Below, piece after piece: positions 39,378-64,000 of a stretch of DNA of 64,000 bases. This DNA comes from Mycolicibacterium insubricum (GTDB taxonomy: Bacteria; Actinomycetota; Actinomycetes; Mycobacteriales; Mycobacteriaceae). The notes beneath the pieces were generated by a model that saw only the letters and a program-made list of their open reading frames with translations, searched no databases and was not told where the DNA came from. Every line of letters starts with the position of its first letter. Position 1 is the stretch's first letter. The position numbers and the translations under genes were made by a program. The stretch is from assembly GCF_010731615.1 (NCBI RefSeq), contig NZ_AP022618.1:1-64000 (forward strand). Reading direction: 5' to 3'.

Positions 39378-39392
39378 TCGGCCAGCGTATCA

Positions 39393-39406
39393 ACCAAGCG
39401 CTTGCT
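39393..39406. promoter_or_regulatory. KstR2 operator of kstR2-fadA6
   Basis: ACCAAGCGCTTGCT fits AnCAAGnnCTTGnT and lies 15 bases upstream of kstR2. The end of the GTPase gene at 39498 points towards it, so no second gene is driven from this site. Confidence 0.9.
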
Positions 39407-39497
39407 CGGTACAGCCGGACTACAGCGCGGGCTACAGCGCGCCGCACTTCCGGCGGACCACGGTGCCCCTCCCGCCGGGGAGCGCCGGCAGGCGTGG

Positions 39498-40676
39498 TTA
39501 GAGCGCTCCGAAGCTGGAGGTGACCCAACGCAGCGGGTCCGCGCAGCGGAACGGCGCGATGCCCTTGTGGTTGAGCCGGTTGCCGACGGGTGGCTGGCCC
39601 AACGCCGACACCACGAAGAAGCGGTGCGGCAGGTGGACGCCGCTGGCCGGGTTCTCCACCGCAGCCAGGATCGAACCGCCGTGCAGCCGCTGCAGCAGAC
39701 TGCGGACCTCTTCGTGCAGCAGGGCACCGTCGGCGTCGTCGTAGGTCTTCGACGAGGAACTGTCCCGCATGAACGCGGCGCCCGGGTTCGACATCACCCG
39801 GCTCCACGCCGAGCCCTGCACGTCGGCCAGCACCCGCAGCGCGTCGAACTTGGACAGGATCACCGCCAGCCGGGGCCGGCCGTCGCCGACCGCCAGCAGC
39901 AGGTTCGACAGCACCGACCGCGGGTCGCCGCCGCTGAACGACTGCGGCGGCAACAGGTCGTGCAGCTGTTCCCGGATCATGTCCACCCGCAGCGGGTCGA
40001 ACATGAAGAACAGGGCGTCGGCGTTGCGGAAGAAGTGGAAGTGCGGCGCGTGCAGGTCACCGGCTTCCAGGTCCTCACCGGCGACGTCGCGCAGCACCAC
40101 GAACCGGCGCAGCCCGTTCCAGGAGCCGATGCTGTAGACCAGCGGCTCGCGCTGGTACGACGCCTGGGTGTGCGACGCCGGGGTCGGCGGGATGAGGCCG
40201 CGCTGCTCGAACAGCGGCCGTTCGTAGATGGTGGCGTAGGCGTTGGCGGTGGCCGGAGTCGCCGGTTCCATCGACACCCCGAGTCGCTCGCAGAGCTGCT
40301 CCAACTGCTTGATCAGGACCGCGACGTAGAGGCTCTTACCGGTGGCGCGGGCACCGGCCATCGCGATGCAGATGGCCTGTCCGGAGCGCCAGCCGGTGGG
40401 CAGCACGAAGTGGCATACCGGGCAGATCTCGATCGCCGGACCGCCGAGCGCCTGGCTGGCCTCCATCGCCGACGACGGCAGCGGGCCGTGGTAGCCCGGC
40501 GGCCGCCGGACCTCGTGCATGGCGCCGATGTCGACCGGGGCGCCGTGATAGGCCGCGCCGACCCGGTCGGCGTAGCGGCGCTGCCCGGGCACATTCGGCG
40601 ACACCGTCCACAGGTAGGCGTTGTCGTCGATGATCGAAAAGCAACGTGGGCACTTGGTGACCAGGCCGGGGATCAT
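39498..40676 (-). CDS. Zinc-ribbon TRAFAC-type GTPase, Double-GTPase-2-like, last gene of the GTPase/tubulin operon
   Basis: A 392-residue cytosolic P-loop protein. Two CxxC pairs (C9/C12 CPRC and C85/C88 CPVC) form a probable N-terminal zinc ribbon. The Walker A is GARATGKS at 108-115. DVAGE at 197-201 looks like switch II, and SKFD at 275-278 like the NKxD base-recognition box, so GTP is the likely nucleotide. It resembles the Double-GTPase 2 family that, as I recall, occurs with GAP1 proteins in predicted conflict systems; one G domain is visible here, not two. Its ATG overlaps the vWA gene stop (ATGA). Function unknown; a nucleotide-driven switch for the operon is inferred. Confidence 0.72.
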   Translation of the reverse strand: MIPGLVTKCPRCFSIIDDNAYLWTVSPNVPGQRRYADRVGAAYHGAPVDIGAMHEVRRPPGYHGPLPSSAMEASQALGGPAIEICPVCHFVLPTGWRSGQAICIAMAGARATGKSLYVAVLIKQLEQLCERLGVSMEPATPATANAYATIYERPLFEQRGLIPPTPASHTQASYQREPLVYSIGSWNGLRRFVVLRDVAGEDLEAGDLHAPHFHFFRNADALFFMFDPLRVDMIREQLHDLLPPQSFSGGDPRSVLSNLLLAVGDGRPRLAVILSKFDALRVLADVQGSAWSRVMSNPGAAFMRDSSSSKTYDDADGALLHEEVRSLLQRLHGGSILAAVENPASGVHLPHRFFVVSALGQPPVGNRLNHKGIAPFRCADPLRWVTSSFGAL

Positions 40677-41593
40677 GTCAGTACTCGCAGTAGGGCGGCG
40701 GCGACCTTCTCCAGTTCGCCGGTGTTCTCGGTGAGGAAGCGGTCGATCGGCACGCCCTGCGGCGCCGGGACGAGCACCGGGCCGGCCGCCGCCAGCCGCG
40801 GGTCGTCGCCGATCCGCAACGCGGGAAACCGGCCGCCGGCGGCGAAGTCCCGGCCGTCGGTGATGGCCACGGTTCGGGGTCCGTCGGGGATCGCCGACCA
40901 GCGGGCACCCGCGGAGAAGCGCACCTGCGCGCGGCCGACGGCCTGTGCCAGCTCGGCCAGCGGCGCGGTGATGCCGACCGGTGCAGACCCGACCAGCACG
41001 GCGTCGACCTGGTTGATCCCGGCGACGTCGGCCACGCCGATGATCACGTCCACCGCGGCGGCGACGCTGCCGTCGGCAAAGGCCGGCAGCATCGACGCCG
41101 ACGCGTCGACGGCGATCCGCAACGAGCCGCCGCGGCTGCGCTGGCGGGTGCCGCTGCCGCGGCGGGCGGCGGTGCGGGCCATATTGGCCAGCGGACCCAG
41201 CGGGGTGTCGGCCACCGCGCGCGCTTCGACCTCGATGACCGATCCGGCCGGGCTCAGACCCGCCAGTTCCATTGCGCCGGCGCCGGAAACGTCGACCGGC
41301 TCGAAGGTGACCTGCACCGGGTCGAGGTCGGACGTCGACTCCGGACCGATGCCCAGGTGCACGACGGTGCCGTGCGGAAACGCCGGGATGCCGGCCGGCT
41401 CTACGCCGACGGTGATCGGTCCGGAGACCGTCGGCAGGACCACCAGCTGGGCGTTGACCCGTACGATGTGCTGGCCGGGTTCCGCGGCGATGTACAGCGC
41501 GGCCCCGCCAACCTGCCCGGCGATCGAAATTGCCAACGGTTCGTTGGGGATCTCCACCCGGGGCGTCCGCGCCCCCAACAGATAGATCGGCAT
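40673..41593 (-). CDS. Cytosolic von Willebrand factor A domain protein
   Basis: A 306-residue protein with no signal peptide or membrane segment. Residues 1-150 are beta-rich (PNEPLAISIAGQVGG, HIVRVNAQLVVLP), perhaps a beta-sandwich. A Gly/Arg-rich hinge follows. The vWA domain starts at SLRIAVDASASML, where D163, S165 and S167 make a MIDAS metal site. It overlaps the GAP1-like gene by one base (TGATG) and the GTPase gene by four, so the three proteins are made in step. vWA domains usually bridge proteins through a metal, so it is likely an adaptor. The precise role is unknown. Confidence 0.7.
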   Translation of the reverse strand: MPIYLLGARTPRVEIPNEPLAISIAGQVGGAALYIAAEPGQHIVRVNAQLVVLPTVSGPITVGVEPAGIPAFPHGTVVHLGIGPESTSDLDPVQVTFEPVDVSGAGAMELAGLSPAGSVIEVEARAVADTPLGPLANMARTAARRGSGTRQRSRGGSLRIAVDASASMLPAFADGSVAAAVDVIIGVADVAGINQVDAVLVGSAPVGITAPLAELAQAVGRAQVRFSAGARWSAIPDGPRTVAITDGRDFAAGGRFPALRIGDDPRLAAAGPVLVPAPQGVPIDRFLTENTGELEKVAAALLRVLT

Positions 41594-44076
41594 CACTGAC
41601 TCCACTGTGTCTGGGCGGGAACGGGATGGGCCGGAACGGGATTCGCCGATTCGGCCTGCCACCCGGACAACTGCTTCTTGAGCATGCGGCTGACCCGGCG
41701 ACCCTCCCCGTCGGGGCCGGCCAGCCGGGCCGCGGCCTCGGCCACCGCGCCCGGATCGACGCGGCCCGCCCACCGGGGCGCCACCGCGGCCAGTACCGGC
41801 CCGACCCCCGGCGACGGAAGCCCGGAGTCGGCGGACAGTGCGGCGGCGGCGAGCAGCGTCGCCGGGTCGATGACACCGTCGGCCAGCAGAGTGTCGACCT
41901 GCCCGATCGCCTCGGCGATCAGCGTGTCGTCGATGGGCGCGCCTGCCAGCAACCGCGGCGGCCGGGCACCGACGGTGGCGCCCAGGACCGACAGCACCAG
42001 CACCCGCCGGAGGAAGGCGCGGTTGACCGCGCCCGGGGCCAGATCGGCGACGTCGTCCCAGAACGGCACGTAGGCGGCGAAGTGGGAATCCAGGTAGTTC
42101 AGCGCCACCCAGTCGGCCGGGGACAGCGCCCACACCGCGGCGACGGCCACCGACTCGTCGCCCGGCACCGCGGCGATCACCCGGGTGGCCAGTTCGGTGG
42201 TGTCGGCGTCACCGGCGCCAGCGGCCAGCGCGCGGGCGGCGGCCCGGTCCGGGAACGGTCCGGTGGTGCCGCCGGCGGCCAGCAGTTCGGCGATGGTCCA
42301 GCCCTCGGTGCCGGCGATCGGGGTGAGCCGGTCCGGACCGGTGCCCAAGCGGCGCAGCCACCAGTAGGCGAGCTTGCGGTCGCCGGGATCGGCGGAGCCG
42401 CTCTGCACGGCGCGCACGGCGTGCAGCACGGTCGCGGTCCAGCCGGCGGCGCCCGGTTCGGCGGCCGCGGCGGCGGACACCGTCGGGCGTGGCTGGCCGT
42501 CGACCAGCCAGCTCACCAGCCGGGGGTGCAGGCCGCGCAGCGCGTTGTTGGCGGCCTCCGGGCTGCCGACCAGCCGGGCCGCCAGGGCGGCCCGCAGCTG
42601 CGGCGACACCGGGCCGGGCAGCCGGGCGATCAGGTCCGGGCCGACGTTCGGATTCGCCAGCGCCGGTGCGATATCGGAGCTCAGCAGCGGTTCGGCCAGC
42701 GCACCCAGGCCGGCCGCGGTAAGCAGGTCGGCTGCGCGCAGCAGCCGGATCGGTCCGGCGCCGCGCAGTGCGGTCAGCCGTGCCACCAGGTCGGTGCAGA
42801 CGGGTTCGCCCAGGGCCTCTACGCTCAGGCCGGTCTGTGGCAGCGGTAGCGTCCCGGGCCGGTCCAGCCAGGCCGGGTCGGAGCACGCGCGGGTCAGATA
42901 CACACCGGTCAGCGCGGTGGCCAGCACCCCCGTCGCCGCCGCGGCGGCACGTCCGGCCTGCTCGGTGGTGGTGCCGGCACGCCGGACGACCTCGCCCTCG
43001 ACCAGGGCGACAACCTCCGGTTGCACGGCCAGTCCCGGCGGCGCCCACTCGGCGACCACCGACCGGGCCTCCGGCACGGCGTCGGCGAATTCTTCGCGAG
43101 CCAGCACCGACAGTGCCATCGGCAGCGCCGGGTGCAGTCCGGTGTCGTCCAATCGCGATGCGGCGTCGTCGATCTGGTCGAACATCACCGTCGCGTCGGT
43201 CGGGTCGATCAGGGCGACCTGCGCCATCGCCGACCACTCGGTCACCGGCACCTGCTGGCCTCGGGAGGTGCGGTGCGGCTGACCGCCCAGTGCCCCGAGG
43301 GACACCGGCTCGGATTCACCGAGCACGAAGAATCCGCGTTCGGCGCAGGCGTCGAGGTCGGATTCGGGTACCGCGATCAGGAACTCGGTGTTGCCGGCGG
43401 TCAGCTCGTCGGGCCGGTCGAAGGTCGAGAAGCTCAGTGCAGCAGCCGTTCCCGTGGACATGAACCGACTCACCAAGCCGATCCACAGCGCGGCGTGCTC
43501 GAGCGAGGAAACGCCCAGCACCACCGAGGAGTTCGAGCGCATGGCGGCCAGCACGGCGTCGAGCAGCACGCACGCGGTGCCGAGCCGCCAGACCGTGGCG
43601 TCGCAGGCGAAGTCGACGACGGCCTGGGTGCTGACCAGTGCCGTCGTCTCCGGAATCCGGTCGCCGAGTTCGGCTTCCCGGACGGCGGTCGGGCCGTAGG
43701 GGGTCAGCCAGCCCGGCGATCCCCAGCGTTCGATCGGGCGCACCGCCGAAGGCACCGGCATCCGATCCAGCAGAACGTGGGCGAAGACGTTCCCGGGGCG
43801 TCCGGTGCTGTCCGGACCGGCGGGCACGGTGTGCCAATACGCGGCACCGGCGTCGATCGGCCGGTAGCCCAGTCGCCGCGGCAGCGCCGCGATCTGCTCG
43901 GGTGTCGGGTACTGAGGAAGCGGCTCAACGGGATTGAGCGTGGTGTGCACCCCGGTCACCAGCACGTGCTGTTCGGCGGGAGTGATCGACCCGGTGGTCT
44001 GCTTCACCTGCCAGCCGCCGGCCGAGCCGGGGGTGTCGAACGAGGTGTAGGTCAGTTGGGCGAAGCGGTCGGTCAT
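41593..44076 (-). CDS. GAP1-like GTPase-associated protein
   Basis: An 827-residue cytosolic protein. The first 110 residues (FAQLTYTSFDTPGSAGGWQV, then QTTGSITPAEQHVL) match the GTPase-associated protein 1 N-terminal type 2 pattern as I remember it. The centre (RLGTACVLLDAVLAAMRSN, VLGVSSLEHAALWIGLVSRF) would be the middle domain, and the rest is alpha-helical and Ala/Leu-rich, like a repeat scaffold. It has no P-loop. Its ATG overlaps the stop of the previous gene. It likely senses or regulates the GTPase encoded two genes downstream; this is inferred from gene pairing. Confidence 0.65.
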   Translation of the reverse strand: MTDRFAQLTYTSFDTPGSAGGWQVKQTTGSITPAEQHVLVTGVHTTLNPVEPLPQYPTPEQIAALPRRLGYRPIDAGAAYWHTVPAGPDSTGRPGNVFAHVLLDRMPVPSAVRPIERWGSPGWLTPYGPTAVREAELGDRIPETTALVSTQAVVDFACDATVWRLGTACVLLDAVLAAMRSNSSVVLGVSSLEHAALWIGLVSRFMSTGTAAALSFSTFDRPDELTAGNTEFLIAVPESDLDACAERGFFVLGESEPVSLGALGGQPHRTSRGQQVPVTEWSAMAQVALIDPTDATVMFDQIDDAASRLDDTGLHPALPMALSVLAREEFADAVPEARSVVAEWAPPGLAVQPEVVALVEGEVVRRAGTTTEQAGRAAAAATGVLATALTGVYLTRACSDPAWLDRPGTLPLPQTGLSVEALGEPVCTDLVARLTALRGAGPIRLLRAADLLTAAGLGALAEPLLSSDIAPALANPNVGPDLIARLPGPVSPQLRAALAARLVGSPEAANNALRGLHPRLVSWLVDGQPRPTVSAAAAAEPGAAGWTATVLHAVRAVQSGSADPGDRKLAYWWLRRLGTGPDRLTPIAGTEGWTIAELLAAGGTTGPFPDRAAARALAAGAGDADTTELATRVIAAVPGDESVAVAAVWALSPADWVALNYLDSHFAAYVPFWDDVADLAPGAVNRAFLRRVLVLSVLGATVGARPPRLLAGAPIDDTLIAEAIGQVDTLLADGVIDPATLLAAAALSADSGLPSPGVGPVLAAVAPRWAGRVDPGAVAEAAARLAGPDGEGRRVSRMLKKQLSGWQAESANPVPAHPVPAQTQWSQ

Positions 44077-46280
44077 GACTGGGGCTGCCCGCCGCGCAGG
44101 CGCAATGCGTCGACGTGGGGGTCCAGCAGCGCGAACCGGCGCAATCGTTGCGGATCCAAGTCGGCGAAAAGCCGAATCCACCCCGTCAGCCCGCGCACAT
44201 CGCCCCCCCATGTCTCATTGCTGCCGGCCTTTGCCAGCGTGCTCCACTGGAACGTCTTGACCGCACCGGATGCCGGGCGTCCCTCGTCGTCGAGGCGCAC
44301 CATGTCGACCGGCGTTCCGTCGGTGGAACTCAACGGAATTCGATCGGGGTTGTGCACCATGACGAACGGGGGTGATCCGAACATGTCGTTCTCGGACCGG
44401 ATGCGGACCGCGGCCAGCGCCGGCATGCCGGTGGCGGTGTCGGGAATGGTGCGCAGTTCGTACCACAACCGGGCCAGCCCGCCGTATTCGATGGAGGCCG
44501 GAGCGCCCTGCACCGGGCGCCCGGCGCTGTAGGCCACCGGGAGAAGGTGCAGCGAGCAGCCGGCCGGCGGCAGGTCGTTGATGAACTGCATTCCGCCACT
44601 GCGCTCGTAGTCGGCCAGCGAGATCTCGAAGCTGCGACCGGTCAGCCCGCGCGCCGGGTCGTGTCCCTTGGGGGCGATGAAGATCCGGACCGCGGCCGCG
44701 CCCTGCGGCCAGTCGAAGGTGAGCACCTGCTTGTTGCAGTACTCCACCAGCGACACGTCGGTGATCAGCCCGGTGCGCACCGACGACTCGGAGCGGCCCA
44801 GCCGCGCCCGCCCGTCGAGCACGGTCACCGGGGTGAAGTAGGCGCGATGCCACTCGTGCGGCCAGGGCACCCCGGCCATGGTGGACTTCACCGAGCCGTC
44901 CGGTTCGCGGCGCTCGGCCACCGGGTGGGTCAGCATTGCCGAGCGCGGCAGGCCGACGTGTTCGAGCGCGCTCTCCTCCAACTCGGAGTCACGCGCTCCG
45001 GCGGCCGGCGGTTCGGCGGTTCGGTACAACAACACGCGCCCGAACTCCGGTGCGGTCCATTCCAGGTCGAAGACCACGTCCTTGCGCTCGGCGTGCATGG
45101 TGACGCTCAGGTCGTCGACCGGGACCACCACCGCCGACACTCGGATGTCGGCGTCGACGTAGTCCGACAGCCGCACCTGGCCGTCGACCTCGACTTCGCA
45201 GCGCAGCTGGTAGACGTAGCGTCGGCCGCGTTCGATCTCCTGGTCGATGAAGCCGGTCAGATTCGGTGTGCCGGCCTGGATGCGGAAGGCGGCACCGGCC
45301 CGGGAGGCCAGTTCGGCGGGCATCCGGTAGATGTGCACGGCGACCACGCCCGGAGGCGCCTGCCACTGGCCGATCACTCGGCCGGAGTCCTCGCGGACCT
45401 CGACCTGGCTCAGGCCCCCGACGACGACACCCGCGGCGTGCAGCACCGGCTGGGCGGCCATCGCCGCGGCCGCGTCCTCGCCGACATAGGCCCACACCTG
45501 CAGGTGCCGGATGGCCGAGGTCAGCGCGCGGGCGTCGCGGGCGGCGGCCTCGCGAGTGGCCGCGATCTGGAATCCGTGATCCGGTGAGTAGCCGCGGGAT
45601 TCCTCGCTGGACACCACCCGGTAGATGACGTGGGATTCGCCGGACGGGTGCTCCGCCCAGCTCAGGTCCAGGCCGCCGCCGGGGGCACGGCGCAGCCGGA
45701 TGTCGGGGACCCGATCGGGCATCGGTGCGAACTGGAAGGGCGCAAACCCGGACTGCGGCACCGGTTCCGGCCGGGGAGCCGCGGTGGGCGCAGGCTCGGC
45801 GGGCCGCGGGGCCTCGGTGGGCGCCGGGGCCCCGGACATGGCGCTGGTTTCCGGCTCATCGACACCGGACTGCACCGGCGGCAGGGTCACCGGCGGCGCG
45901 ATGCGCGGCGTGGAGCCGGTGCCCGGCGCCGGGAGACGGATCATCGCGGTGGCCTCGGAGGGGTCCGGGGCCGGCGGGGCGACGGGCGCCTCCGGTGCCC
46001 GGTGGGCGCCGGGCTTGCGCTCCGCCGCGGCGGTGGGGCCTGCCGGCTCGGCGCCGGACAGCACCCGGGCCATATCCTCGGCGTGCTCGGCGACCGCGCC
46101 GGGCAGCATTTCCCGGAGCTGGTCGACGTCGGTGCGCCCGGAGCGCAGCACCAGCCGGATGTGAGCCTCCTTGAACGCGGCCGGCGAGACGGTGCCCGCC
46201 GCGATCAGTTCCTCGCGCCAGCGCAGCAGCGCCGCCAACCGCGGATCGTCGGTCTCGTTGTTCGGCTGTGAATCGCCCAT
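44073..46280 (-). CDS. Fibronectin-III-like multi-beta-sandwich protein
   Basis: A 735-residue protein without signal peptide or membrane segment. Residues 1-60 are helical (LAALLRWREELIAAGTVSPA). Residues about 80-190 are a Pro/Ala linker. From about 195 on come repeats of beta-sandwich type, with a Trp in strand C such as LDLSWAEHPSGESHVIYRV, IGQWQAPPGVVAVHIYRM, FDLEWTAPEFGRVLLYRT and LTFDWPQGAAAVRIFI. These four are spaced about 100 residues apart and look like fibronectin type III units. It sits between the membrane protein (2-base gap) and GAP1 gene (overlap). A protein-protein scaffold is the likely role. Confidence 0.62.
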   Translation of the reverse strand: MGDSQPNNETDDPRLAALLRWREELIAAGTVSPAAFKEAHIRLVLRSGRTDVDQLREMLPGAVAEHAEDMARVLSGAEPAGPTAAAERKPGAHRAPEAPVAPPAPDPSEATAMIRLPAPGTGSTPRIAPPVTLPPVQSGVDEPETSAMSGAPAPTEAPRPAEPAPTAAPRPEPVPQSGFAPFQFAPMPDRVPDIRLRRAPGGGLDLSWAEHPSGESHVIYRVVSSEESRGYSPDHGFQIAATREAAARDARALTSAIRHLQVWAYVGEDAAAAMAAQPVLHAAGVVVGGLSQVEVREDSGRVIGQWQAPPGVVAVHIYRMPAELASRAGAAFRIQAGTPNLTGFIDQEIERGRRYVYQLRCEVEVDGQVRLSDYVDADIRVSAVVVPVDDLSVTMHAERKDVVFDLEWTAPEFGRVLLYRTAEPPAAGARDSELEESALEHVGLPRSAMLTHPVAERREPDGSVKSTMAGVPWPHEWHRAYFTPVTVLDGRARLGRSESSVRTGLITDVSLVEYCNKQVLTFDWPQGAAAVRIFIAPKGHDPARGLTGRSFEISLADYERSGGMQFINDLPPAGCSLHLLPVAYSAGRPVQGAPASIEYGGLARLWYELRTIPDTATGMPALAAVRIRSENDMFGSPPFVMVHNPDRIPLSSTDGTPVDMVRLDDEGRPASGAVKTFQWSTLAKAGSNETWGGDVRGLTGWIRLFADLDPQRLRRFALLDPHVDALRLRGGQPQS

Positions 46281-46282
46281 TG

Positions 46283-48943: not shown

Positions 48944-48945
48944 CC

Positions 48946-51900
48946 TCAGAACGTCCCACCCTCAGGGATATGCAGGTCCTCGCCACCGCCGTCGGCGCCG
49001 CCGGATCCGGTAGCACCGGCGAGCGGGGTGGCCACCAGCGATTCGGCCTCGCGGATCTTGGCGCACAGGGTGTCGGTGGCCCAGTACACGTCCGGCGCCA
49101 GGTCCCGGAAGATCGGGGTTTTGCTGGCCTTGGCGCGGGTGGTGACGGTGGTGAAGACGCCGCCCTCGGCCGCCCCCGGGCTGCCGGCGGGCAGGTACTC
49201 GGCGGCCAGGTCGCGGACCGTCTCCAGCCACTTGACGGCCGCATCGGCCCGCTCGGACACCGTTGTGGCGGAGGCGATTTCCGGGATGCGCGAGGCCAGC
49301 TTCCCGGTGCTGCCGTTGCGCAGGAAGTCCGCCAGCCGGGACACGGCGGCCAGTTCCACGATGCCGCTGGCCGGGTCCTGGGAGTTGGAGTCATACAGCT
49401 CGCGCAGCACCCGGTACGGGCGCAGCGACCGCATTGCCGGCGGCTCCAGCGACTGGGCGATAGCCAACAGGATGCCCTCCAGCACCGCGGGCAGCCAGTC
49501 GTACTGGGCGGTGAACTCCGATGGCGGGGTCAGCAGCGGGTTGGGGAACGGCACCCACTGCTGGTGCTCGTCGTCGTAGACCCGGACCGGCTCGGTGTAG
49601 GGCGACGGCGGGATTTGGATCCGGCCGGTGACCTGCCCGAGGAACCAGCCGGCCGTCATGGTGCGTCGCTCGTCGTCGCCCATCGGCAGCGAGGCCTGCA
49701 GCGGGCGGGACCGGCGCAACCGCCAGAACGGCACCCGGGCCGGACCCGCGGTCGACGACCATTGCTGGGCAACGGGTTTGAGCACCGAGTCGAACGCCAA
49801 CGGCGAGTAGTTCGGGTACGAGCCGAAGATGTCGATGTGGGTGACGCTGTCCTCATCCGACATGGCGCGCCCGTAGTTGTCCCGGGTGGCCTGGTCGATG
49901 CGGGGGTTGGACTTCAGCGCATCGGCGAGCTCATTGGCCACCGCCTGCCCCAGGAACGGGATCTCGGAGAACTTGTACCGGTACTCCAACTGCTGACCGG
50001 GGTGCACCGCCTGCAGGCTCTGGTCGTTGACACTGGCCAGCGGCCGGGCCAGCGACAGCGCCTCGTTGAACTTCACCACCACGTCGTGACGACGGGAGCC
50101 GAGCTCGGATTCCGAGGCGCCCACGCCCTGGATGAAGTCGCGCAGCGACACCTTGCAGAACTCGTCGAACGCCTCACCCGGGCGGGCGATGTAGGTGCGC
50201 GCCCGGGCCAGCAGTTCGGCCGGCCGGGTGTGCACGTCGTATTGCGCCATCGCCGGAACCAGTGCGGCACCGGTCTCCGGGTCGGAGCCGAAGGCCCGGC
50301 TCACCCAGGTCGACGTCAGATCGACCAACCCGCCGGGCGCCGGCACACCACCGGTCGTCGGCCACAGCCCGGAGATCACCCGCGCGGTGCTCTCGGCGAC
50401 CGCGGCGTAGAACGGCGGCGAGCCCGGACCACTGACCAGCGCCTTGGGCAGGTCGAGTTCGTAACGCGCCTTGAACGCCGTCGAATTGATCAGCAGCACT
50501 TCGTTGTTGGCCTCGGCGAACCGGCCGGGCACCAGCTCGTCGGCGTCCGACGGCCAGGCTACGTACTGGTCGGTGGCCAGCCGGGCCAGACCGACGTCCG
50601 AGGGCTGCTCGGCGCGGGCGTTCTCCAGCAGCACCTGGGCCTCCGACAGCGCGGCGCTCAGCGGTGCCAGCACCTCGCCGCCGAACACCTTGAACACCTC
50701 GGCGATCTTCTGCGATGCGCTGGCGTACAGGGCGCGGCGGATGTTGCCCTGGAACCCGTCCAGCGCGGTGAACAACACCTGGTCGGCGTTGGCCATCACG
50801 CCGTGCAGCGACATCAGGGTGCCCTCGACGTTGGGCGCCAGCGCCACAATGTCTTTCGGCCCCATCGAGCCGAGATCACCCATGGCCGTTGCCAGTTGGT
50901 CGTCAATGAAGCGGCGCAGCAGGTCCACCATGCCGCGCGCATACGGCAGGGAGAAGTCCGCGACGGCCCGGGTGACGGCGGTGTTGACCCGCTCAGCGAA
51001 TTCCCTGTGCCAGGCGAACGCCAGCGCGTAACCGGCTTCGTTGACCGCCTGGGCCAGCGGGCCGCGACGGTTGGCGACGGCCTGGCGGAAGATCGGCACC
51101 CACTGCTCACCGGCCATCCCCGCCGGGTTCGGCAGATACGGCCGCAGCTGGCGCTCGATGATGGTGTTGCAGACCCCGGCGACCTGGCGCGGCGGCAGCG
51201 CGAGGTTCGTCATCCAGCCGCCGAGCACCCGGATCCGGCTGTTCTCGTCGCCGGTGGTGGGCGGCAGGCCGATGCCGTTGCAGATCGCGCCCCACTGGCT
51301 GTCCAGCAGCGAGTCGAGCTGCTCGGTGCCCGAGGCCGGGTTGCCCGGCTGCAGGTGACCGAACAGCAGCTTGTCGGCGGCGCTGCGGGCCAGCCGCTGC
51401 GCGGCGTATTCGGCGTAGCGATCCCGGCCCATGCTGAGGCTGGCGAAGCCGTAGGTGCCCCAGGGCAGCGGGTCCCACACCTTGTTGCCCCAGCCGAGCA
51501 GGTCGCGGTCACCGGCGGGCGAGGCGGTATTGCCGAGGTCGTAGGAGACGAATTGGTCGCTGGCGGTGCCGGACATCATCAGCCCGGCCAGGCCGCGGCC
51601 CAGCCCGCGGTACACCGCGTTCTGCGAGCCGTCGCCGAACAGCGTACGGTCGGCGCCGACGTAGCGCCCGACCGGGAACACGCGGGCGAACGGGATCGGC
51701 TCGCCGTCGCCGTGCTGCTGGCCGAGGGCCCGCAGGATGCGGACGTCGTGGTCGCGGGCGGCACCGGACTGGCTGGCGACGATCTCGCCGAGCATGGCCA
51801 GCGCGTTCGCGCGCACACCGATGCGGGCGCTTTCCGGCAGCGAGTCGAAGATGTCGGGCGTGACCATGAAGACACCCATCAGCTTGGGGTCCAGGCCCTG

Positions 51901-52500
51901 CACCAGGGTCAGCAGCCGGCAGATGTCCAGCGCCATGGATGCACCGGCGCCGCCGGCCATCGACGAGACGACGAGCACCAGCGGCGGCTCGTTCGGGTCG
52001 AACCGGCCCATGCCGGGGACCTTCAGCCGGGCCATCTCCGACATCGCCTCGACGCGGAACAGCTGGTCCCAGGCGGTCTGCAGGCGCTGGCGGACCTCGC
52101 CCGCCTTGCTGAGGGTGATCATCCGGCCGATGGCCCGGTACTGCCCGGCGCCCGCCGAAATGGGGTTGGTGACGCCCTCGGGTGAGCGAGGCGCCCAGGT
52201 CCCGATGGCGTCCAGGGCGCCCTCGGCCGCCAGCCGCTGCGACAGCGCGCTGTCCAGCGTGGCGTAGCTGGAGCCCTGCGGCCCGGTGCCGACGTAGGTA
52301 CCGCCCTGCGCCGGGACGTTGGCCAACCCGTCGGGACCGGATTCAGCGCCGCTGGGGACGTCGATGTGGACGAACTGCCAGCCCGTCGGCAGCGAGTGCA
52401 CGCCGGCGGCCAGCAGTTCCGAACGCAACTGGTCCATCATGTAGCTGAGAGTGGCGCCACCGGAACCACCGCATCCCACGACCAGAAAACGTCGCATCAA
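48946..52500 (-). CDS. Large tubulin/FtsZ-like GTPase (Tubulin_2-like)
   Basis: A 1184-residue protein with a tubulin-type nucleotide fold at the N-terminus. Residues 6-17 are LVVGCGGSGGAT, the first glycine loop. LVVSSMAGGAGASMALDICR around 176-195 is the tubulin signature loop in which GGGTGSG is relaxed to AGGAGAS. LGVFMVTPDIF-like strand GVFMVTPDIF follows. It is three times longer than FtsZ; the C-terminal 700 residues are helical and unassigned. It belongs to the family I recall as Pfam Tubulin_2. The start overlaps the upstream vWA gene by four bases. Polymerisation is inferred only from the fold. Confidence 0.72.
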   Translation of the reverse strand: MMRRFLVVGCGGSGGATLSYMMDQLRSELLAAGVHSLPTGWQFVHIDVPSGAESGPDGLANVPAQGGTYVGTGPQGSSYATLDSALSQRLAAEGALDAIGTWAPRSPEGVTNPISAGAGQYRAIGRMITLSKAGEVRQRLQTAWDQLFRVEAMSEMARLKVPGMGRFDPNEPPLVLVVSSMAGGAGASMALDICRLLTLVQGLDPKLMGVFMVTPDIFDSLPESARIGVRANALAMLGEIVASQSGAARDHDVRILRALGQQHGDGEPIPFARVFPVGRYVGADRTLFGDGSQNAVYRGLGRGLAGLMMSGTASDQFVSYDLGNTASPAGDRDLLGWGNKVWDPLPWGTYGFASLSMGRDRYAEYAAQRLARSAADKLLFGHLQPGNPASGTEQLDSLLDSQWGAICNGIGLPPTTGDENSRIRVLGGWMTNLALPPRQVAGVCNTIIERQLRPYLPNPAGMAGEQWVPIFRQAVANRRGPLAQAVNEAGYALAFAWHREFAERVNTAVTRAVADFSLPYARGMVDLLRRFIDDQLATAMGDLGSMGPKDIVALAPNVEGTLMSLHGVMANADQVLFTALDGFQGNIRRALYASASQKIAEVFKVFGGEVLAPLSAALSEAQVLLENARAEQPSDVGLARLATDQYVAWPSDADELVPGRFAEANNEVLLINSTAFKARYELDLPKALVSGPGSPPFYAAVAESTARVISGLWPTTGGVPAPGGLVDLTSTWVSRAFGSDPETGAALVPAMAQYDVHTRPAELLARARTYIARPGEAFDEFCKVSLRDFIQGVGASESELGSRRHDVVVKFNEALSLARPLASVNDQSLQAVHPGQQLEYRYKFSEIPFLGQAVANELADALKSNPRIDQATRDNYGRAMSDEDSVTHIDIFGSYPNYSPLAFDSVLKPVAQQWSSTAGPARVPFWRLRRSRPLQASLPMGDDERRTMTAGWFLGQVTGRIQIPPSPYTEPVRVYDDEHQQWVPFPNPLLTPPSEFTAQYDWLPAVLEGILLAIAQSLEPPAMRSLRPYRVLRELYDSNSQDPASGIVELAAVSRLADFLRNGSTGKLASRIPEIASATTVSERADAAVKWLETVRDLAAEYLPAGSPGAAEGGVFTTVTTRAKASKTPIFRDLAPDVYWATDTLCAKIREAESLVATPLAGATGSGGADGGGEDLHIPEGGTF

Positions 52501-55500
52501 GCTCCTCCTCGGTACGGGTCAAACGGGTTGATCGGACGCTGCCGGGTCGTTTCGGAGTCGTCAGCGGGTGCGGGTTGGTTCCCGAACCGGGGGTGCGGGG
52601 CCTCCATCGTCTCGCCCTGATGGTCGATGGCCGACGGCGGCACCGGCTGGTCGTAGATGCCGGGACCGGGCCGCGGGGGTTGCTGCATCGGGGGATGCTG
52701 CGGCGGCGGCTGATGCTGCATCGGGGGTTGCTGGGGAGGCCGCTGGTGCTGCATCGGGGGTTGCTGCGGCGCCTGCGGCGGCAGCGGTGCCGCGAACGGG
52801 TCGGTGAATCCGCCGCCCTGGCCGCCGAATCCGCCGCCGGGCGGGCTACCGAAGCCACCGCCGGAGGGAGCACCGAAGCCACCGCCGGGCGGGGGACCGA
52901 AGGACGGCGCAGGAGACGCACCGAAGGCATCTCCGGCGAACGGATCACCGCCGAAGGGGTCGCCGCCGGGGCCGGTCATCGGGTCGCCGCCGAACGGTGA
53001 CGGGTCGGACGCACCGGCGCCGACCGGCACCAGGTTCGCCGCGCCGGCCCGGGCCCGCAGGCCCGACAGCATGTCGGGCAGCTTGCGCTCGATCTCCTCG
53101 AACAGTTTTTCCCGGGCCGGGATGTCCGTCTGCCCGCCGACCATGATCAGCACCTCGGCCCGGTCCTGGGGGCCGCGCGGATCGTGCAGCAGCACCCACT
53201 TGCCGTGCACGGCCAGCGGTAGCACCGCCTGCACGCCCGACTCGTCGGTGGACGGCAGCTCCGAGCCAGCCGACAGCAGGCCCGGTGCGTCGACGCGCAC
53301 GTGCGCGGTGCCGAACGGGCTACGGCCCAGCACCACCTTGAGGGTGACGCCCTCGACGGTCAGCGTGCGAACGCCGCTGGCCAGCCCGGGCACCGGGGTG
53401 ACCAGGTCGGTTTCGGCCAGTTCGAAGGGCTCGCCATCGCGCAGCAGCACCCCGTGGTCGATCTCCACCGGGATGCGCTGGGCCAGCATGGGAGCGCCCG
53501 GGATCTTGCCGACGTACCACTTGGACAGGTACAGCAGGGCCAGCGGGATGCCCGGGCCCAGCAGCAGCGCGGCGATCAGAGCCAGCACGAAGTTCAGCGG
53601 GCTGATCGGCTTGATCATGTTGGCGTTGAACGCCACCACCATGGTCTCGGACTCGTTCGGCTTGTCCTTCGGGGCGATGTTCAGCGTCACCTTGCCGTTG
53701 AGGCTGGCGTTGTCGGCGTGGTCGGTCGACAGGTCGACCTGCAACTCCGCCTTCTGTCCCTCATCGATCTTCAGGCAGTTGGTCCCACCGTTGCTGGGTG
53801 AGGTCACCGCAATGGTGCCCAGAGCCTCCGGCGCCGCCGGCACATCGGGCTTGCTGCCGTCGGCGATCCACACGCAGCCCGGACCGGTGACCTCGAGTTT
53901 CGCGGTTGCCTTGGTGCCCTCGACATCGCCGAACTTGATGGTGTCACCCGGTACCGGCATACCCAGCTTGGGCTGCAGGGTGATCGGGATGTCCTTGTTC
54001 TGCGGGCTCAGCACGGTACCCTCGATCGGCTTGCCCGCGGCGTCGAGCACCGGTTTGCCCTCGGGGTCCAGCGGTGCCGCAGTCTTGATCGTCAGCGACA
54101 TCTTCACCGTCGCCGCACCCGGCTTGAGCGAGGTCAGGTCCACATCGACCGGGGTGGCGATGGCCGTCTTGGGCACGTCCTTGAGCACCTGCACCGGGGC
54201 CGAACCGTCGACGGCGACCGAGGCCGACAGGGTGGCGTCACCGGCGATGGAGCTCGGATCGATCGGCTTGTTCTTGCCGTCGACCAGGCCGAACACGACG
54301 CCCTTGGTGACCTGCCCGGCGCGCCACGGCTTCGCGTCGTCGATGGTCACCGCCGGGAAGATGTCGGTGGTGATGTGGATATTGGTCTTGGAGATGGCGT
54401 CGGCGTGCTGGCCGGTGGTATCGACGTAGACCAGCGCCCACTGCCCCACCCAGGCGGGATTGTCGGGTCCGGCGATGGTGATCTCCTGCGCCGAATCCGA
54501 CTTCCACTCATAGGTCACCGGGATGCCGTCGAGCGTGGTCTCGGACTTGCCGTCCTTCTTGGGCAGATCCACCTTGGCGCCGGTCGGCGAGTACAGCCAC
54601 GGCTCGATACCGGCGACGCCGCCGGAGCCGAGGATGGTGACCGTCTTGACCGAGCGGTCCAGCACGAAGTTGTGCCGGCCTTCCTCGCACGGCTGGCCGG
54701 GCTGGCACACCGGCTTGGTGTCCTCGATCTTCGGGTCCGGGTTCAGCGCGTCGAACGCGAACAGCATGTCGTCGATGTTGGAGACGCGGTAGAACCCACC
54801 GGGGACCGGATCGGTGATGCTGCCGCAGGATTTGCCGGCCACCCCCTTGCCGGTCGCGATCGCCGACAGCACGTCGAAGTCCTGGTCCGACTGCTGATCC
54901 CCCAGACCGACCGCCAGCATGACGATCTTCGAGGTGCGCAGCTGATCGGCCAGGCCGCCCTTCTTGCAGATCGCCTCGGTCGCGGCGGTGATGGCCTGGT
55001 TGACGCCGTCATCGCTGTTCAGGTCCACGCCGGGGGCGTAGCTGCGGGTACCCGGGCGCTTGGTGAAGTCGATCTTGCCGTCGGTGAACCAGGCGATGGC
55101 CTGGCACCGGTTGGCGTCGCCCTTGGCCCGGGTGGCCAGCTGGCTCCGCGCGCCGTCGAGCGCCTGGAAGTAGTCGGTGTCGGCGCCGGAGTTGTTGTTG
55201 GCCAGCTGCGCCAGCTGGTTCTTGACGTTCTCGACGGATCCGCCGTTGAGGCCGGTCCAGTCCTGGCGCATCTGGAAGTCCTCGGAGAACCCGGCGATGG
55301 CGACGTCGAGTTTGGCCGAGGTCCGGTCGGCGTAGCGGGCCAGCGTGTCCAGCAGGTACTGGCCGGCCTTGACCCGCGCCGCGGCGGGGTCGGTGTCTTT
55401 GAGGCTGCCGGACTCGTCGATCAGCAGCAGCAGGTCGCCGGCCTTCTGGCCGGCCAGGCAGGCGCCGTAGCGGTCGACGGCGCGGTTGTCGGCTTCGGCG

Positions 55501-55595
55501 CGGGCGATGCCGGCGAACAGGCCGGAGGAGGCCAGTCCGAACAGCAGCGCCAGGACCGCCGACAGCAGCAGGAATCGAGACAGAGCGGATCGCAT
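52497..55595 (-). CDS. Membrane-anchored extracellular vWA protein with (D/N)PF-rich cytosolic tail
   Basis: A 1032-residue protein. Residues 1-33 form a signal peptide (FLLLSAVLALLFGLASSG). The vWA domain at about 50-290 has MIDAS D60-S62-S64 (LLLIDESGSL) and lies outside the cell. Beta-rich domains follow to about 660. A single helix near 670-692 (VLALIAALLLGPGIPLALLY) leads to a cytosolic beta domain and a Gly/Pro/Gln-rich tail with SPFGGDP, GDPFGGDPFAGD and a final NPFDPYRGGA. The ATG at 55595 (MRSALSRF) is preferred over a GTG at 55619, which lies in the upstream gene. It could link an external signal to the cytosolic GTPase parts. Confidence 0.72.
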   Translation of the reverse strand: MRSALSRFLLLSAVLALLFGLASSGLFAGIARAEADNRAVDRYGACLAGQKAGDLLLLIDESGSLKDTDPAAARVKAGQYLLDTLARYADRTSAKLDVAIAGFSEDFQMRQDWTGLNGGSVENVKNQLAQLANNNSGADTDYFQALDGARSQLATRAKGDANRCQAIAWFTDGKIDFTKRPGTRSYAPGVDLNSDDGVNQAITAATEAICKKGGLADQLRTSKIVMLAVGLGDQQSDQDFDVLSAIATGKGVAGKSCGSITDPVPGGFYRVSNIDDMLFAFDALNPDPKIEDTKPVCQPGQPCEEGRHNFVLDRSVKTVTILGSGGVAGIEPWLYSPTGAKVDLPKKDGKSETTLDGIPVTYEWKSDSAQEITIAGPDNPAWVGQWALVYVDTTGQHADAISKTNIHITTDIFPAVTIDDAKPWRAGQVTKGVVFGLVDGKNKPIDPSSIAGDATLSASVAVDGSAPVQVLKDVPKTAIATPVDVDLTSLKPGAATVKMSLTIKTAAPLDPEGKPVLDAAGKPIEGTVLSPQNKDIPITLQPKLGMPVPGDTIKFGDVEGTKATAKLEVTGPGCVWIADGSKPDVPAAPEALGTIAVTSPSNGGTNCLKIDEGQKAELQVDLSTDHADNASLNGKVTLNIAPKDKPNESETMVVAFNANMIKPISPLNFVLALIAALLLGPGIPLALLYLSKWYVGKIPGAPMLAQRIPVEIDHGVLLRDGEPFELAETDLVTPVPGLASGVRTLTVEGVTLKVVLGRSPFGTAHVRVDAPGLLSAGSELPSTDESGVQAVLPLAVHGKWVLLHDPRGPQDRAEVLIMVGGQTDIPAREKLFEEIERKLPDMLSGLRARAGAANLVPVGAGASDPSPFGGDPMTGPGGDPFGGDPFAGDAFGASPAPSFGPPPGGGFGAPSGGGFGSPPGGGFGGQGGGFTDPFAAPLPPQAPQQPPMQHQRPPQQPPMQHQPPPQHPPMQQPPRPGPGIYDQPVPPSAIDHQGETMEAPHPRFGNQPAPADDSETTRQRPINPFDPYRGGA

Positions 55596-55600
55596 CGGGG

Positions 55601-56179
55601 CTATAACCTTCCCGCCCACAGGGCGATCTGCCAGGCACCCAACGCGATGCCCACCGCGCTCACCGCGAGCACCGCCCAGTACCCGTTGGACAGCCAGGCC
55701 GGCGCGGAATAGACCGAGTTCATCCGGCGCTTGGTATCGGCCGCGCTGAACCAGGCCAGCATGCCGATCGCGGCGGGCCCGGCCAGCAGCCAGCCCAGCA
55801 GCGCCAGCACCACCGAGTTGTCCAGCGGGATGGCGACCAGGCCCAGGATCACTCCGAGGATCGCCACCCCGAGTGCGCCGAACATCAGCTTGGTCGGCGG
55901 TCCGGCCACCGTGAGGTCGCCGATCATCGGCGTGCCCTCGGATCCCCCGAATGGCGAACCGCCTGGTGCGATGACGTCGCCACCCGCGCCGAACGGGTCG
56001 AATCCGCCGCCTCCGGGGCGGGTCGCCGTCGGCGGCGGGTTGAAACCACTGGACTGCGGGTTGAAGCCGCTGGATTGCGGCCCGGCCGGCGGCGCCATCG
56101 GCGCGCCGAAGCCACCCGAGGGCGGCGCGGCCGAGGACTGACCGAAATCGCTGAAGTCGAACGGATTTGACGGCGGCAT
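55601..56179 (-). CDS. Small membrane protein with N-terminal (D/N)PF repeats
   Basis: A 192-residue protein. The first 85 residues are disordered and Gly/Pro-rich, with NPFDFSDFG, a repeated SSGFNP pair, FDPFGAGG and SPFGGSEG. Three hydrophobic helices follow near 98-118, 122-145 and 168-188. No domain name can be given. It lies between the DUF4190-like gene (19-base gap) and the vWA gene (5 bases). The shared DPF/NPF segments suggest contact with a common partner. Confidence 0.68.
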   Translation of the reverse strand: MPPSNPFDFSDFGQSSAAPPSGGFGAPMAPPAGPQSSGFNPQSSGFNPPPTATRPGGGGFDPFGAGGDVIAPGGSPFGGSEGTPMIGDLTVAGPPTKLMFGALGVAILGVILGLVAIPLDNSVVLALLGWLLAGPAAIGMLAWFSAADTKRRMNSVYSAPAWLSNGYWAVLAVSAVGIALGAWQIALWAGRL

Positions 56180-56198
56180 AGTTTTTCCGGATACCTCG

Positions 56199-56924
56199 TC
56201 AGTACTTATTCAGGCAGACCGCGAACGAGCGGTCCGGGGGCTCGGCGGCATAGGTGGTGTTGCAGGCGGAACCCGACGAGGCGATGGACACGACGGTGTA
56301 CACCCCGCTCATGCTCTCGCAGTCCACCTGGAACAGGTCGAGCGCATAGGCGCCGGTATCGCGGGACTGGATCTCCACGCACATCCCGACGGTCGCCTGG
56401 CTCAGCTCGATCTTGTCCCGACGGCGCGCGGGCGCCTTCGTGGTGGCGGTGACGGTCTTGGTCGACGGCGCCACTGTGACCCCGGCCTTGCTGGTGGTCG
56501 CGGTGGTGGCGAGCGGCTGCGTCGGGCCGTCGTCGCTGGCGAAGAACAGCCAGCCGAAGATCGACGACAGGATCAGCAGGATGATCAGCGCGACGGTCAG
56601 CACGTAGCCGATCACCAGCCCGGCGATCGCCGACGGCCTGCCGCGCTCACCGGTTCGCTTGATCTGCGGCAACGCCAGATGACCCAGCACGATCCCGGCC
56701 GGCGGCAACAGCACCCCGAAGATCGGCGACAGGACCGCGTAGGTGTTCAGCTTGGGCTGCGCGGGAGGTACCCCCGGCGGAAATCCCGGCATACCGGGCA
56801 TCCCGGTCCCGAAACCGGGCGTGCCGGTACTCACCGGCACCCCGTAGCCCATCGACGGACCGGCGTCCATACCCCCGAAGGGGTCCCCCATCTGCGGCCC
56901 GAACGGGTCGCCACCGTAAGTCAC
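56199..56924 (-). CDS. DUF4190-like membrane protein with C-terminal extracellular cysteine domain
   Basis: A 241-residue protein. GGDPFGPQMGDPFGGMDAG and a Pro/Gly stretch form the N-terminal tail. Two TM helices at about 60-85 and 98-125 enclose LALPQIKRTGERGRPSAIAG, the cytosolic loop of DUF4190 proteins. A Thr/Ala linker leads to a domain with VGMCVEIQSR, VDCES, SACNTT and VCLNKY, four cysteines likely paired outside the cell, like septum-formation-type domains. It is a paralogue of the next gene upstream. Confidence 0.7.
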   Translation of the reverse strand: MTYGGDPFGPQMGDPFGGMDAGPSMGYGVPVSTGTPGFGTGMPGMPGFPPGVPPAQPKLNTYAVLSPIFGVLLPPAGIVLGHLALPQIKRTGERGRPSAIAGLVIGYVLTVALIILLILSSIFGWLFFASDDGPTQPLATTATTSKAGVTVAPSTKTVTATTKAPARRRDKIELSQATVGMCVEIQSRDTGAYALDLFQVDCESMSGVYTVVSIASSGSACNTTYAAEPPDRSFAVCLNKY

Positions 56925-56970
56925 TGATGCAGTCTAACGAACCGCCGGTAACAGGCGTCGCGGCAAAAGG

Positions 56971-57735
56971 TCAACCCGCATATTTGACGTAGCAGGCGAA
57001 GACGGTCTTTTCGTGGTTGTAGAGCATGCTGGTGCGGCACTGCGCTTCCGTCGGTACGACGTCGGTCACCTGGAAGACCCCGTCACGGACCTCACAGCTG
57101 GCCCGGTACGCCTTGATGAACTGGGCTGACTCGCCCTCTTCCGGGTTCGGCCGCAGATTCTGGATCTCCACGCAGTCACCGACCCGCAGCTCCTCCACTC
57201 GCACCGTCGGCCGGGTGGTGGGTTCGACCGTCACCACGCTGGTCGAGGTGCGCGGCGGGGCTGTCGTCGTGGTCCGGGTGGTGGTGGTCGTCGACTGGTG
57301 CGGCACCGTGGGCTCCGATTCGCCGTGGCCGCGCAGCAACAGCAGCCAGACCAGCAGGGCGATGATCGTCAGCAGGATGATCACGTAGGACAGCGTCAGG
57401 CCCAGCACCGCGCGCCTGCGCCCGGCCTGGTTTCGCTCCTTGATCTGGTTCAGGGCGAGGTGCCCGAGCAGCGCACCGACCGGCGCGAACACGAACGCGA
57501 ACACCACCGACAACGTGGCCAGGGTGTTGACCTCGCCCTGCGGCTCGGTCGGCGCGGGGAATCCCCCGGGACCCGGATAGCCGGTGGACATCGGGGCGTC
57601 GCCGAAAGGCGCACCGTAGCCGCCCGACGCGGGCTGGTAGCCGCCCGGCTGGGACGGTCCGCCGCCGAACGGGTCGCCCCCGAACGGATCACCACCGAAC
57701 GGATCGCCGCCGTAGGGGCCCCCACCGTAAGTCAC
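56971..57735 (-). CDS. DUF4190-like membrane protein, first gene of the minus-strand operon
   Basis: A 254-residue paralogue of the previous protein. The N-terminal tail has three DPFGG units in a row (GGDPFGGDPFGGDPFGGGP). Then come two TM helices enclosing LALNQIKERNQAGRRRAVLG, a Thr-rich linker, and a cysteine domain (VGDCVEIQNL, YRASCEV, AQCRTS, FACYVKY). The gene starts 70 bases from the divergent plus-strand gene, so this is where the 18-kb operon begins. Confidence 0.7.
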   Translation of the reverse strand: MTYGGGPYGGDPFGGDPFGGDPFGGGPSQPGGYQPASGGYGAPFGDAPMSTGYPGPGGFPAPTEPQGEVNTLATLSVVFAFVFAPVGALLGHLALNQIKERNQAGRRRAVLGLTLSYVIILLTIIALLVWLLLLRGHGESEPTVPHQSTTTTTRTTTTAPPRTSTSVVTVEPTTRPTVRVEELRVGDCVEIQNLRPNPEEGESAQFIKAYRASCEVRDGVFQVTDVVPTEAQCRTSMLYNHEKTVFACYVKYAG

Positions 57736-57805
57736 GCGGGCCAGTTTACGGGCGTGCCGAAAATTAGCGTCGGAAGGGACGCCGCGGCGGACTTAGGGTC
57801 GATCC
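57736..57805. promoter_or_regulatory. Divergent promoter region of the two arms
   Basis: Seventy bases separate the start codons at 57735 (minus) and 57806 (plus). Promoters of both arms must lie here or in the adjoining coding sequence. I see no operator-like palindrome. Confidence 0.4.
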
Positions 57806-58819: not shown

Positions 58820-58858
58820 CCCGTTCTGATATTCGCACTCGGACACTCGGAGGATTCC

Positions 58859-61375: not shown

Positions 61376-61376
61376 G

Positions 61377-62582: not shown

Positions 62583-62644
62583 CGGCAACTGGCGGTGGAT
62601 TCGCGTCGCGAAAAGTTGTCGGTGGCCGGTTCTACCATGGAAAC

Positions 62645-63628: not shown

Positions 63629-63766
63629 CCGGTTGGTGCTGCGTCCAGCCGAATCGTGTTGGGACCAGAACGATGGTGTCGAGGCCAGGTGGCAGGTATC
63701 GCGCCACCCCAGCAAATTGCCCGGACTGCCCCGCTACGTCCGCCCGTCAAAAGAGCCTCCAATGAC

Positions 63767-64000
63767 TCACGGGTGCTGGCTGGAGACCGAGATGACCTCT
63801 CCGGTCAGATAACTCGCGTAGTCGCTGGCCAGGAACGCAATGGTGGCCGCGACCTCCCACGGTTCGGCAGCCCGGCCGAATGCCTCACCGCCGGCCAGCC
63901 GGTCCAGCAGGTCGGCCGAACTCACCTTCTCCAGGAACTTGTGACGTGCGATGCTCGGAGAGACCGCGTTGATCCGCACTCCGTGCTCGACGGCCTCGAT
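63767..64000 (-). CDS. ipdF: Short-chain dehydrogenase IpdF (Rv3559c family), C-terminal part, cut by window edge
   Basis: The C-terminal 77 residues of an SDR: HGVRINAVSPSIARHKFL, the FGRAAEPWEVAATIAFLASD stretch and YLTGEVISVSSQHP at the end. It matches Rv3559c as I recall, a dehydrogenase of the HIP branch that acts near FadE30 and FadD3. The N-terminus with the cofactor turn lies beyond 64000. It shows that the steroid gene order resumes here after the 24-kb insert. Confidence 0.8.
   Translation of the reverse strand: MEAVEHGVRINAVSPSIARHKFLEKVSSADLLDRLAGGEAFGRAAEPWEVAATIAFLASDYASYLTGEVISVSSQHP

Follow-up and report, generated by a model that had tools for sequence, protein, structure and literature searches.

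What might a bacterium use an operon for that combines a tubulin-like GTPase, a second GTPase of another type, two vWA proteins and several membrane proteins, and is such a system new? We asked this of a ten-gene operon of Mycolicibacterium insubricum (39498-57735, minus strand). It lies in a 64,000-nucleotide stretch of DNA, here called the window, at the start of a genome that is a single contig of 4.58 Mb (NZ_AP022618.1). An earlier note, made from the sequence of the window, had called the operon the best candidate for an undescribed system. That description does not hold: the predicted class already appears in the consulted sections of two papers (PMC7159879 and PMC2875224), and the operon almost certainly belongs to the GAP1-N2 (FtsZl1) systems of the actinobacterial tubulin type. 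The family identity is firm; the role is inferred. In our judgement the chances are about even that the operon is both a member of this family and a horizontally acquired, membrane-attached, GTP-switched assembly for envelope stress or phage conflict.

The operon and its family

All ten genes named in the earlier note were found, on the minus strand and without an internal stop. From 57735 down they run s1, s2, s3, vwaX, tub, tm2, fn3, gap1, vwaC, dogt:

56971..57735, minus strand: s1, DUF4190 protein (46.8 bits) with three DPFGG repeats and a C-terminal Cys4 region
56199..56924, minus strand: s2, DUF4190 protein (55.8 bits) with two DPF in the N-terminal tail and a C-terminal Cys4 region
55601..56179, minus strand: s3, protein of 192 residues with three transmembrane (TM) segments and the N-terminal tail NPFDFSDFG (TM scan; profile matches in 71 loci)
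52497..55619, minus strand: vwaX, predicted exported vWA protein, 1040 residues (VWA_2, TM scan, conservation of the metal ion-dependent adhesion site, MIDAS)
48946..52500, minus strand: tub, tubulin-like GTPase (Tubulin_2/FtsZl1), 1184 residues counted from TTG (Tubulin_2 match)
46283..48943, minus strand: tm2, protein of 886 residues with two TM segments (TM scan, AlphaFold2 model)
44073..46280, minus strand: fn3, FNIII-like scaffold, 735 residues (weak fn3/HRDC matches in family members)
41593..44076, minus strand: gap1, GAP1 protein (GAP1-N2 plus GAP1-M), 827 residues (Pfam, both domains above cut-off)
40673..41593, minus strand: vwaC, cytosolic vWA protein, 306 residues, MIDAS motif DASAS (read from the sequence)
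39498..40676, minus strand: dogt, DO-GTPase2-type GTPase with a zinc ribbon, 392 residues (PF19993 just below cut-off, plus conserved residues)

Neighbouring genes overlap by 1 or 4 bases at four of the nine junctions (40673-40676, 41593, 44073-44076, 52497-52500), so that the claim of such overlaps at most junctions was slightly overstated. The other five are two gaps of 2 bases, one overlap of 19 bases if the GTG at 55619 is the start, and two wider gaps (19 and 46 bases). Searches for RNA elements gave neither a tRNA nor an Rfam match within the window.

Pfam searches returned most of the families that had been expected from the sequence. GAP1-N2 (76.5 bits) and GAP1-M (29.1 bits) matched gap1 above the cut-off of 24 that applies to both, VWA_2 matched vwaX (30.8 bits, cut-off 27), DUF4190 matched s1 and s2 above its cut-off, and tub gave the sole Tubulin_2 match of the genome (166 bits). 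Two expectations were not borne out in full: DO-GTPase2 scored 25.1 bits in dogt against a cut-off of 27, and no vWA family in Pfam matched the vwaC of the window, whose TetR_C_41 match is at chance level only. Neither fn3 nor s3 of the window matched a Pfam family at E 0.05. Among 30 scanned members of the fn3 family, fn3 was weakly matched in two (best E 0.019) and HRDC weakly in one (E 0.045).

Counted over ungapped alignment rows, the zinc-ribbon cysteines of dogt are near-invariant (C9 in 68/68, C12 in 67/68, C85 in 65/66 and C88 in 66/67), and its GTP-binding residues are retained throughout (G113 and K114, 67/67; D197 and E201, 67/67; K276 and D278, 62/62). The MIDAS of vwaC, read from the sequence as DxSxS at residues 163-167, keeps D163 in 63 of 71 rows (N in 8), S167 in 71/71 and D246 in 70/71. 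That of vwaX is near-invariant: D68, S72, T148 and D180 are each kept in 73/73 rows and S70 in 71/73. VwaX is laid out as a signal/TM segment, a vWA domain with the full MIDAS, further domains, a TM segment at 678-696 and an (N/D)PF tail. Seven of its cysteines are retained in 73 of 73-74 rows, which would fit disulfides on the cell exterior.

The tubulin-like protein probably begins at M2 rather than at the TTG. It has the fold of the tubulin superfamily, with a nucleotide-binding glycine loop, and its model predicts a complete tubulin/CetZ fold bearing a large helical insert. This insert spans several hundred mostly helical residues, from about 385 to 830-900 as placed from secondary structure. 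The fold is common to CetZ, FtsZ, TubZ and eukaryotic tubulin, from which tub differs by the long helical insertion; identities to these proteins are 9-16% across the aligned parts, among the matches listed. Its nearest named relative is the tubulin of Mycobacterium sp. pUA109 (82% identical). Directly 3' of tub lies the gene for tm2, whose AlphaFold2 model (pLDDT 86.8) has an alpha/beta N-terminal domain, a long helical stalk, a TM hairpin at about 533-588, a C-terminal domain and a disordered tail ending in MVF. A Foldseek search with this model gave no match at E <= 0.001. In mycobacteria both proteins have conserved aromatic C-termini: IPxGGTF in tub, and PPxxxMVF or LVF in tm2.

These features place the operon among systems that had been predicted from sequence and gene context. 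Kaur et al. 2020 (eLife, PMC7159879) described actinobacterial GAP1-N2 neighbourhoods that combine a single tubulin with an HRDC-FNIII protein and a membrane-bound vWA-FNIII protein, and termed the class conflict systems. Makarova & Koonin 2010 (Biol Direct, PMC2875224) described vWA/FtsZl1/GTPase operons and proposed a role in membrane remodelling; a reviewer of that paper suggested transport or signalling and named a Corynebacterium glutamicum vWA gene, cgR_2627, with a signal peptide. With the former theme the operon has in common a zinc-ribbon DO-GTPase with a Walker B glutamate (its Pfam score just below cut-off), an N2-type GAP1, a single tubulin gene, a putative FNIII-like protein, a membrane-bound vWA protein (VWA_2, hydrophobic N-terminus, TM 678-696) and an actinobacterial host. 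With the latter it has in common a tubulin-superfamily protein next to vWA, GTPase and membrane-protein genes. There are also differences. The tubulin in the 2020 text has a C-terminal helical fusion, whereas that of the window is modelled as a complete fold with a large insert. The main-text section on the actinobacterial systems does not describe the 2-TM protein, the cytosolic vWA protein, the 3-TM protein, the (N/D)PF tails or a TerD linkage, though its figures and supplements may hold the 2-TM protein, s3 and TerD; TerD is named once in that main text, in a section other than the one on the actinobacterial tubulin theme. Relative to the consulted parts of both papers, the TerD linkage, the predicted completeness of the tubulin fold and the common (N/D)PF tail are additions.

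Does the gene set recur? Scanning genomes with the tub alignment yielded 102 matches; we retained the best 80 as loci, and all counts out of 80 refer to these. Profiles of the ten proteins, run on these loci, show that 63 of the 80 have a core of eight genes (s3-vwaX-tub-tm2-fn3-gap1-vwaC-dogt) with identical order and on a single strand. Sixteen of the 17 loci without all eight genes end on the side of the missing genes; in the other, L094, s3 and vwaX are unrecognisable despite 10 kb of upstream sequence. The core spans mycobacteria to Arthrobacter and a metagenome-assembled genome (MAG) of the Bifidobacteriaceae, and relatives of s1 and s2 are almost confined to mycobacteria (one match each in L072 and L088). 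For every pair of the eight core genes, pairwise distances correlate at 0.85-0.96 (61 sets that passed length filters, window included). Thus, the eight core genes travel together. The proposal of a single co-inherited unit that holds GTPases of two types, a pair of vWA proteins and a number of membrane proteins is supported.

The distribution of the unit is patchy. Within the genus, 20 of 198 sampled genomes, the host's own among them, have a tubulin of this type; across the phylum, 396 genomes yielded five, again with the host counted, and three of these five are distant or partial. GAP1-N2 was found in 6 of 37 same-genus genomes of a separate sample, own included; among the GAP1-N2 stretches retrieved, only the window and one of two G021 loci have a tubulin gene. 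Other same-genus GAP1-N2 loci (L018-L024) carry fn3, gap1 and GTPase genes without a tubulin. In the tubulin tree, the Mycolicibacterium sequence L092 groups with Gordonia, apart from the window's clade of 31 mycobacterial sequences, which points to transfer. We lumped L044 into this main mycobacterial clade; it is a 3.6 kb MAG contig filed as Solirubrobacterales, its tubulin is 71% identical to that of the window, and its label looks like a binning error. The operon also lies in a segment with the look of an insertion:

39378..63769, no strand: segment absent from relatives (comparison with eight relatives)

In four of the eight relatives, a TetR gene (38778-39377 in the window) directly abuts the gene that starts at about 63770 here; the other four hold different DNA. 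Segment 39378-63769 was thus either inserted here or lost there. In L026 and L027, the operon adjoins relatives of the same TetR and thiolase.

Ter genes and a common tail motif

TerD first surfaced when the genes upstream of the operon were clustered: it lies upstream in 14 of the 66 loci, among all loci, that have at least 1.5 kb before s3. We then considered 49 operon genomes picked from the 80 loci, nearly all non-mycobacterial and with just six of the main mycobacterial clade (L045, L050, L066, L075 and L089 were left out). TerD occurs anywhere in the genome in 31 of the 49; in 26 it lies no farther than 10 kb from the operon, against 0.73 expected under uniform placement with rounded genome sizes; clade redundancy was kept in, and 26 of 49 is not the share of all operons. 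Fourteen of the 26 have TerD before s3 and 12 more solely after the GTPase gene. In 14 genomes a TerD gene follows the GTPase gene in the same orientation, at a distance of up to about 1 kb; downstream flanks were covered mainly where a TerD match was nearby, plus L049 and L052, and those of the TerD genomes L047, L057, L058, L060 and L088 only in part. In the four genomes with a single TerD (L063, L065, L069, L100), this TerD is the operon neighbour in 4/4, in the same orientation and at the same short distance behind the GTPase gene. L092, the Mycolicibacterium outside the main clade, has eight TerD.

Other Ter genes adjoin the operon as well: TerC/DUF475 and TelA in L082, and TerC/DUF475 in L098 (seen on L147). 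Hosts in this comparison include Gordonia, Rhodococcus, Williamsia, Nocardia, Arthrobacter, Salinibacterium and Nostocoides, and related genomes among them are not independent. The relatives of vwaC also point, weakly, to the Ter systems, with a vWA-TerF-like match in 11 of 33 (best E 9.5e-4); the vwaC of the window had no such match, and PF10138 found nothing in the window's own genome. The likeness to Ter stress systems thus consists of an adjoining TerD in many relatives, TerC/DUF475 and TelA in some, and weakly TerF-like vwaC relatives; the difference is that the window's genome lacks TerD. We know of no Ter operon with a tubulin or a DO-GTPase.

The second thread is a short motif in the protein tails. 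The mean number of [DN]PF per protein is 1.18 in s3 and 2.53 in vwaX, versus 0.04 and 0.20 in whole-protein shuffles. Tm2 is intermediate (0.34 vs 0.12 expected), and tub, fn3, gap1, vwaC and dogt have no excess over the shuffle expectation. For the wider motif [DNE]P[FW] and tail-only shuffles, vwaX gave 205 occurrences against a mean of 11.4 (maximum 24 in 500 shuffles) and s3 gave 106 against 7.8 (maximum 15). Given related sequences and repetitive tails, the occurrences do not count as independent events.

The motif also marks genes beside the core. At least two [DN]PF in one end were found in 19 of 188 operon-near genes, versus 1 of 280 genes that lie farther out in these loci and 1 of 194 genes from unrelated stretches of mycobacterial DNA. 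Near here means up to 1.8 kb before s3 or, in 17 flanks, up to 2.5 kb past the GTPase gene, and genes for this count and for the TerD flanks were open reading frames selected on third-position GC. Of the 19 genes, 15 encode relatives of DUF4190 proteins and come from mycobacteria; four are of other kinds. One of these four immediately follows the GTPase gene of Mycolicibacterium sp. 018/SC-01/001 (L149, 9878-10774, minus strand): in its product an NPF tail and one TM segment precede a predicted GmrSD_C/HNH region (GmrSD_C, E 8.7e-14) outside the membrane. As judged from these sequences, vwaX, s3 and accessory proteins of other kinds, one of them a predicted anchored HNH nuclease, have (N/D)PF tails in common.

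The C-terminal Cys4 regions of s1 and s2 (56199-57735) weakly resemble LppU/SCO3897, below the cut-offs: s2 scored 17.9 bits (cut-off 25), and s1 scored 26.4 bits for LppU (cut-off 135).

Possible functions

What the sequence shows, then, is an operon whose core is conserved and whose GTP-binding and MIDAS residues are intact; it encodes a predicted exported vWA protein with conserved cysteines, and in relatives it is linked to Ter genes. We judged a scaffold for stress or defence to be the most likely explanation because the operon's presence is patchy and insertion-like and because of its Ter linkage; for a stress or defence role taken by itself, the balance is even. VwaX would sense a ligand, a wall fragment or an intruder outside the cell, and from there the signal would pass to the (N/D)PF tail of vwaX in the cytosol and to the small membrane proteins with similar tails. 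The tails could then dock on a cytosolic complex that vwaC forms with GAP1 and the FNIII-like protein and that the zinc-ribbon GTPase would switch; this docking step is doubtful. Tub might assemble at the membrane on tm2 and gather the tailed cargo, which would be cysteine-rich domains here and, in other hosts, a predicted nuclease. In relatives the assembly may work with TerD, and it would seal, remodel or arm a patch of the envelope.

A bolder version is speculative. The GTP-switched tubulin machine would be a plug-in scaffold that recruits interchangeable membrane proteins (a vWA sensor, cysteine-rich DUF4190 proteins, multi-TM proteins, an anchored HNH nuclease) by an (N/D)PF tail code, and would form the cytoskeletal arm of the actinobacterial Ter stress response, DUF4190 proteins replacing TerD in the main mycobacterial clade.

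Several observations weigh against the stress or defence scaffold. A genome search found no TerD in the window's genome, none was found in the six tested operon genomes of the main mycobacterial clade, and TerD is absent altogether from 18 of the 49 operon genomes. Ter genes serve tellurite and metal stress too, so the linkage is not specific to phage. The topology of the DUF4190 tails is ambiguous: by the positive-inside rule their N-terminal tails could be external. None of the seven operon proteins tested matched PADLOC-DB 2.0.0 at E up to 0.01. Likewise, the inserts of relatives at the TetR site hold no defence gene among those scanned, PADLOC giving one weak match, to a histidine kinase. 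The core has no variable toxin-like effector, unlike the GAP1-N1 systems in the consulted text of Kaur et al. 2020 (PMC7159879). Literature searches by families, FtsZl1, locus tags and Ter-tubulin, with most subscription papers outside their coverage, found neither an experimental study nor an already characterised pathway that these genes match.

The best-surviving alternative, though we consider it unlikely, is a membrane-remodelling cytoskeleton with no part in defence, in which a filament shapes or vesiculates the membrane under regulation by the GTPase and vWA proteins. This proposal is already in print (Makarova & Koonin 2010, PMC2875224), and the modelled complete tubulin/CetZ fold, the membrane-hairpin protein encoded right after tub, and a fixed core without variable toxins all speak for it. 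The predicted fold also bears on the doubt, raised in 2010, whether FtsZl1 proteins could form filaments. A patchy, insertion-like presence and a TerD linkage are ill-suited to a housekeeping cytoskeleton; yet remodelling could be the means by which a stress system acts.

Somewhat more doubtful is a role in chemical or metal stress alone, in which a Ter-like complex in the membrane would detect metal ions or oxyanions via the MIDAS sites of its vWA proteins and would have no phage role. It would account for the TerD, TerC/DUF475 and TelA neighbours in relatives, for the MIDAS conserved in both vWA proteins and for the weak vWA-TerF-like matches in the vwaC family (11/33). However, TerD is lacking in the window's genome, in the six main-clade mycobacterial genomes and in 12 further operon genomes, so the core must work without it, and the usual ligands of MIDAS sites are acidic peptides, held via a metal ion. 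A GTP-driven apparatus for envelope transport, DNA uptake or adhesion, along the line of the 2010 reviewer (PMC2875224), is very improbable: it fits a predicted exported, anchored vWA protein and several membrane proteins, but the conserved core encodes no recognisable channel, secretion ATPase or pilin.

The Ter linkage, the completeness of the predicted tubulin fold and the common tail make the function testable. The TerD linkage ties the operon to a stress system and gives a concrete phenotype to look for; to our knowledge, the Ter system's own mode of action is also unsettled. The common tail is a defined peptide for binding tests. GAP1-N2 and Tubulin_2 marker genes are present in Corynebacterium glutamicum, a laboratory strain in which a control search found no TerD; a single deletion there could tell the proposals apart. 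Different functions for such operons were put forward in two papers, a decade apart, and our literature searches found no test of either.

The probable insertion and its other genes

We scanned the two edges of 39378-63769 for direct repeats and found none; insertion by a transposon or integrase was therefore rejected. A defence hotspot at the TetR site was likewise unsupported, as the scanned genes in the inserts of four of the eight relatives are not defence genes. The genes scanned from these other inserts include a kinase/regulator set, three PPE genes (L138), a hydrolase and an alcohol dehydrogenase.

Further genes share the insertion with the operon:

57806..58819, plus strand: 337-residue frame between the operon and the next gene, which reads like a real gene; no Pfam match
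58859..61375, plus strand: predicted exported protein of 838 residues with a C-terminal TM anchor, divergent from the operon; no family match
62579..63628, plus strand: DUF222-HNH gene at the far end of the insertion

The 838-residue protein was considered as a core part and rejected, since it had no match in L017-L105. Beyond its own cluster it has three relatives among the matches listed, one of them in Mycolicibacterium fallax. It contains an E-x-K-type stretch that presumably recalls restriction-endonuclease folds.

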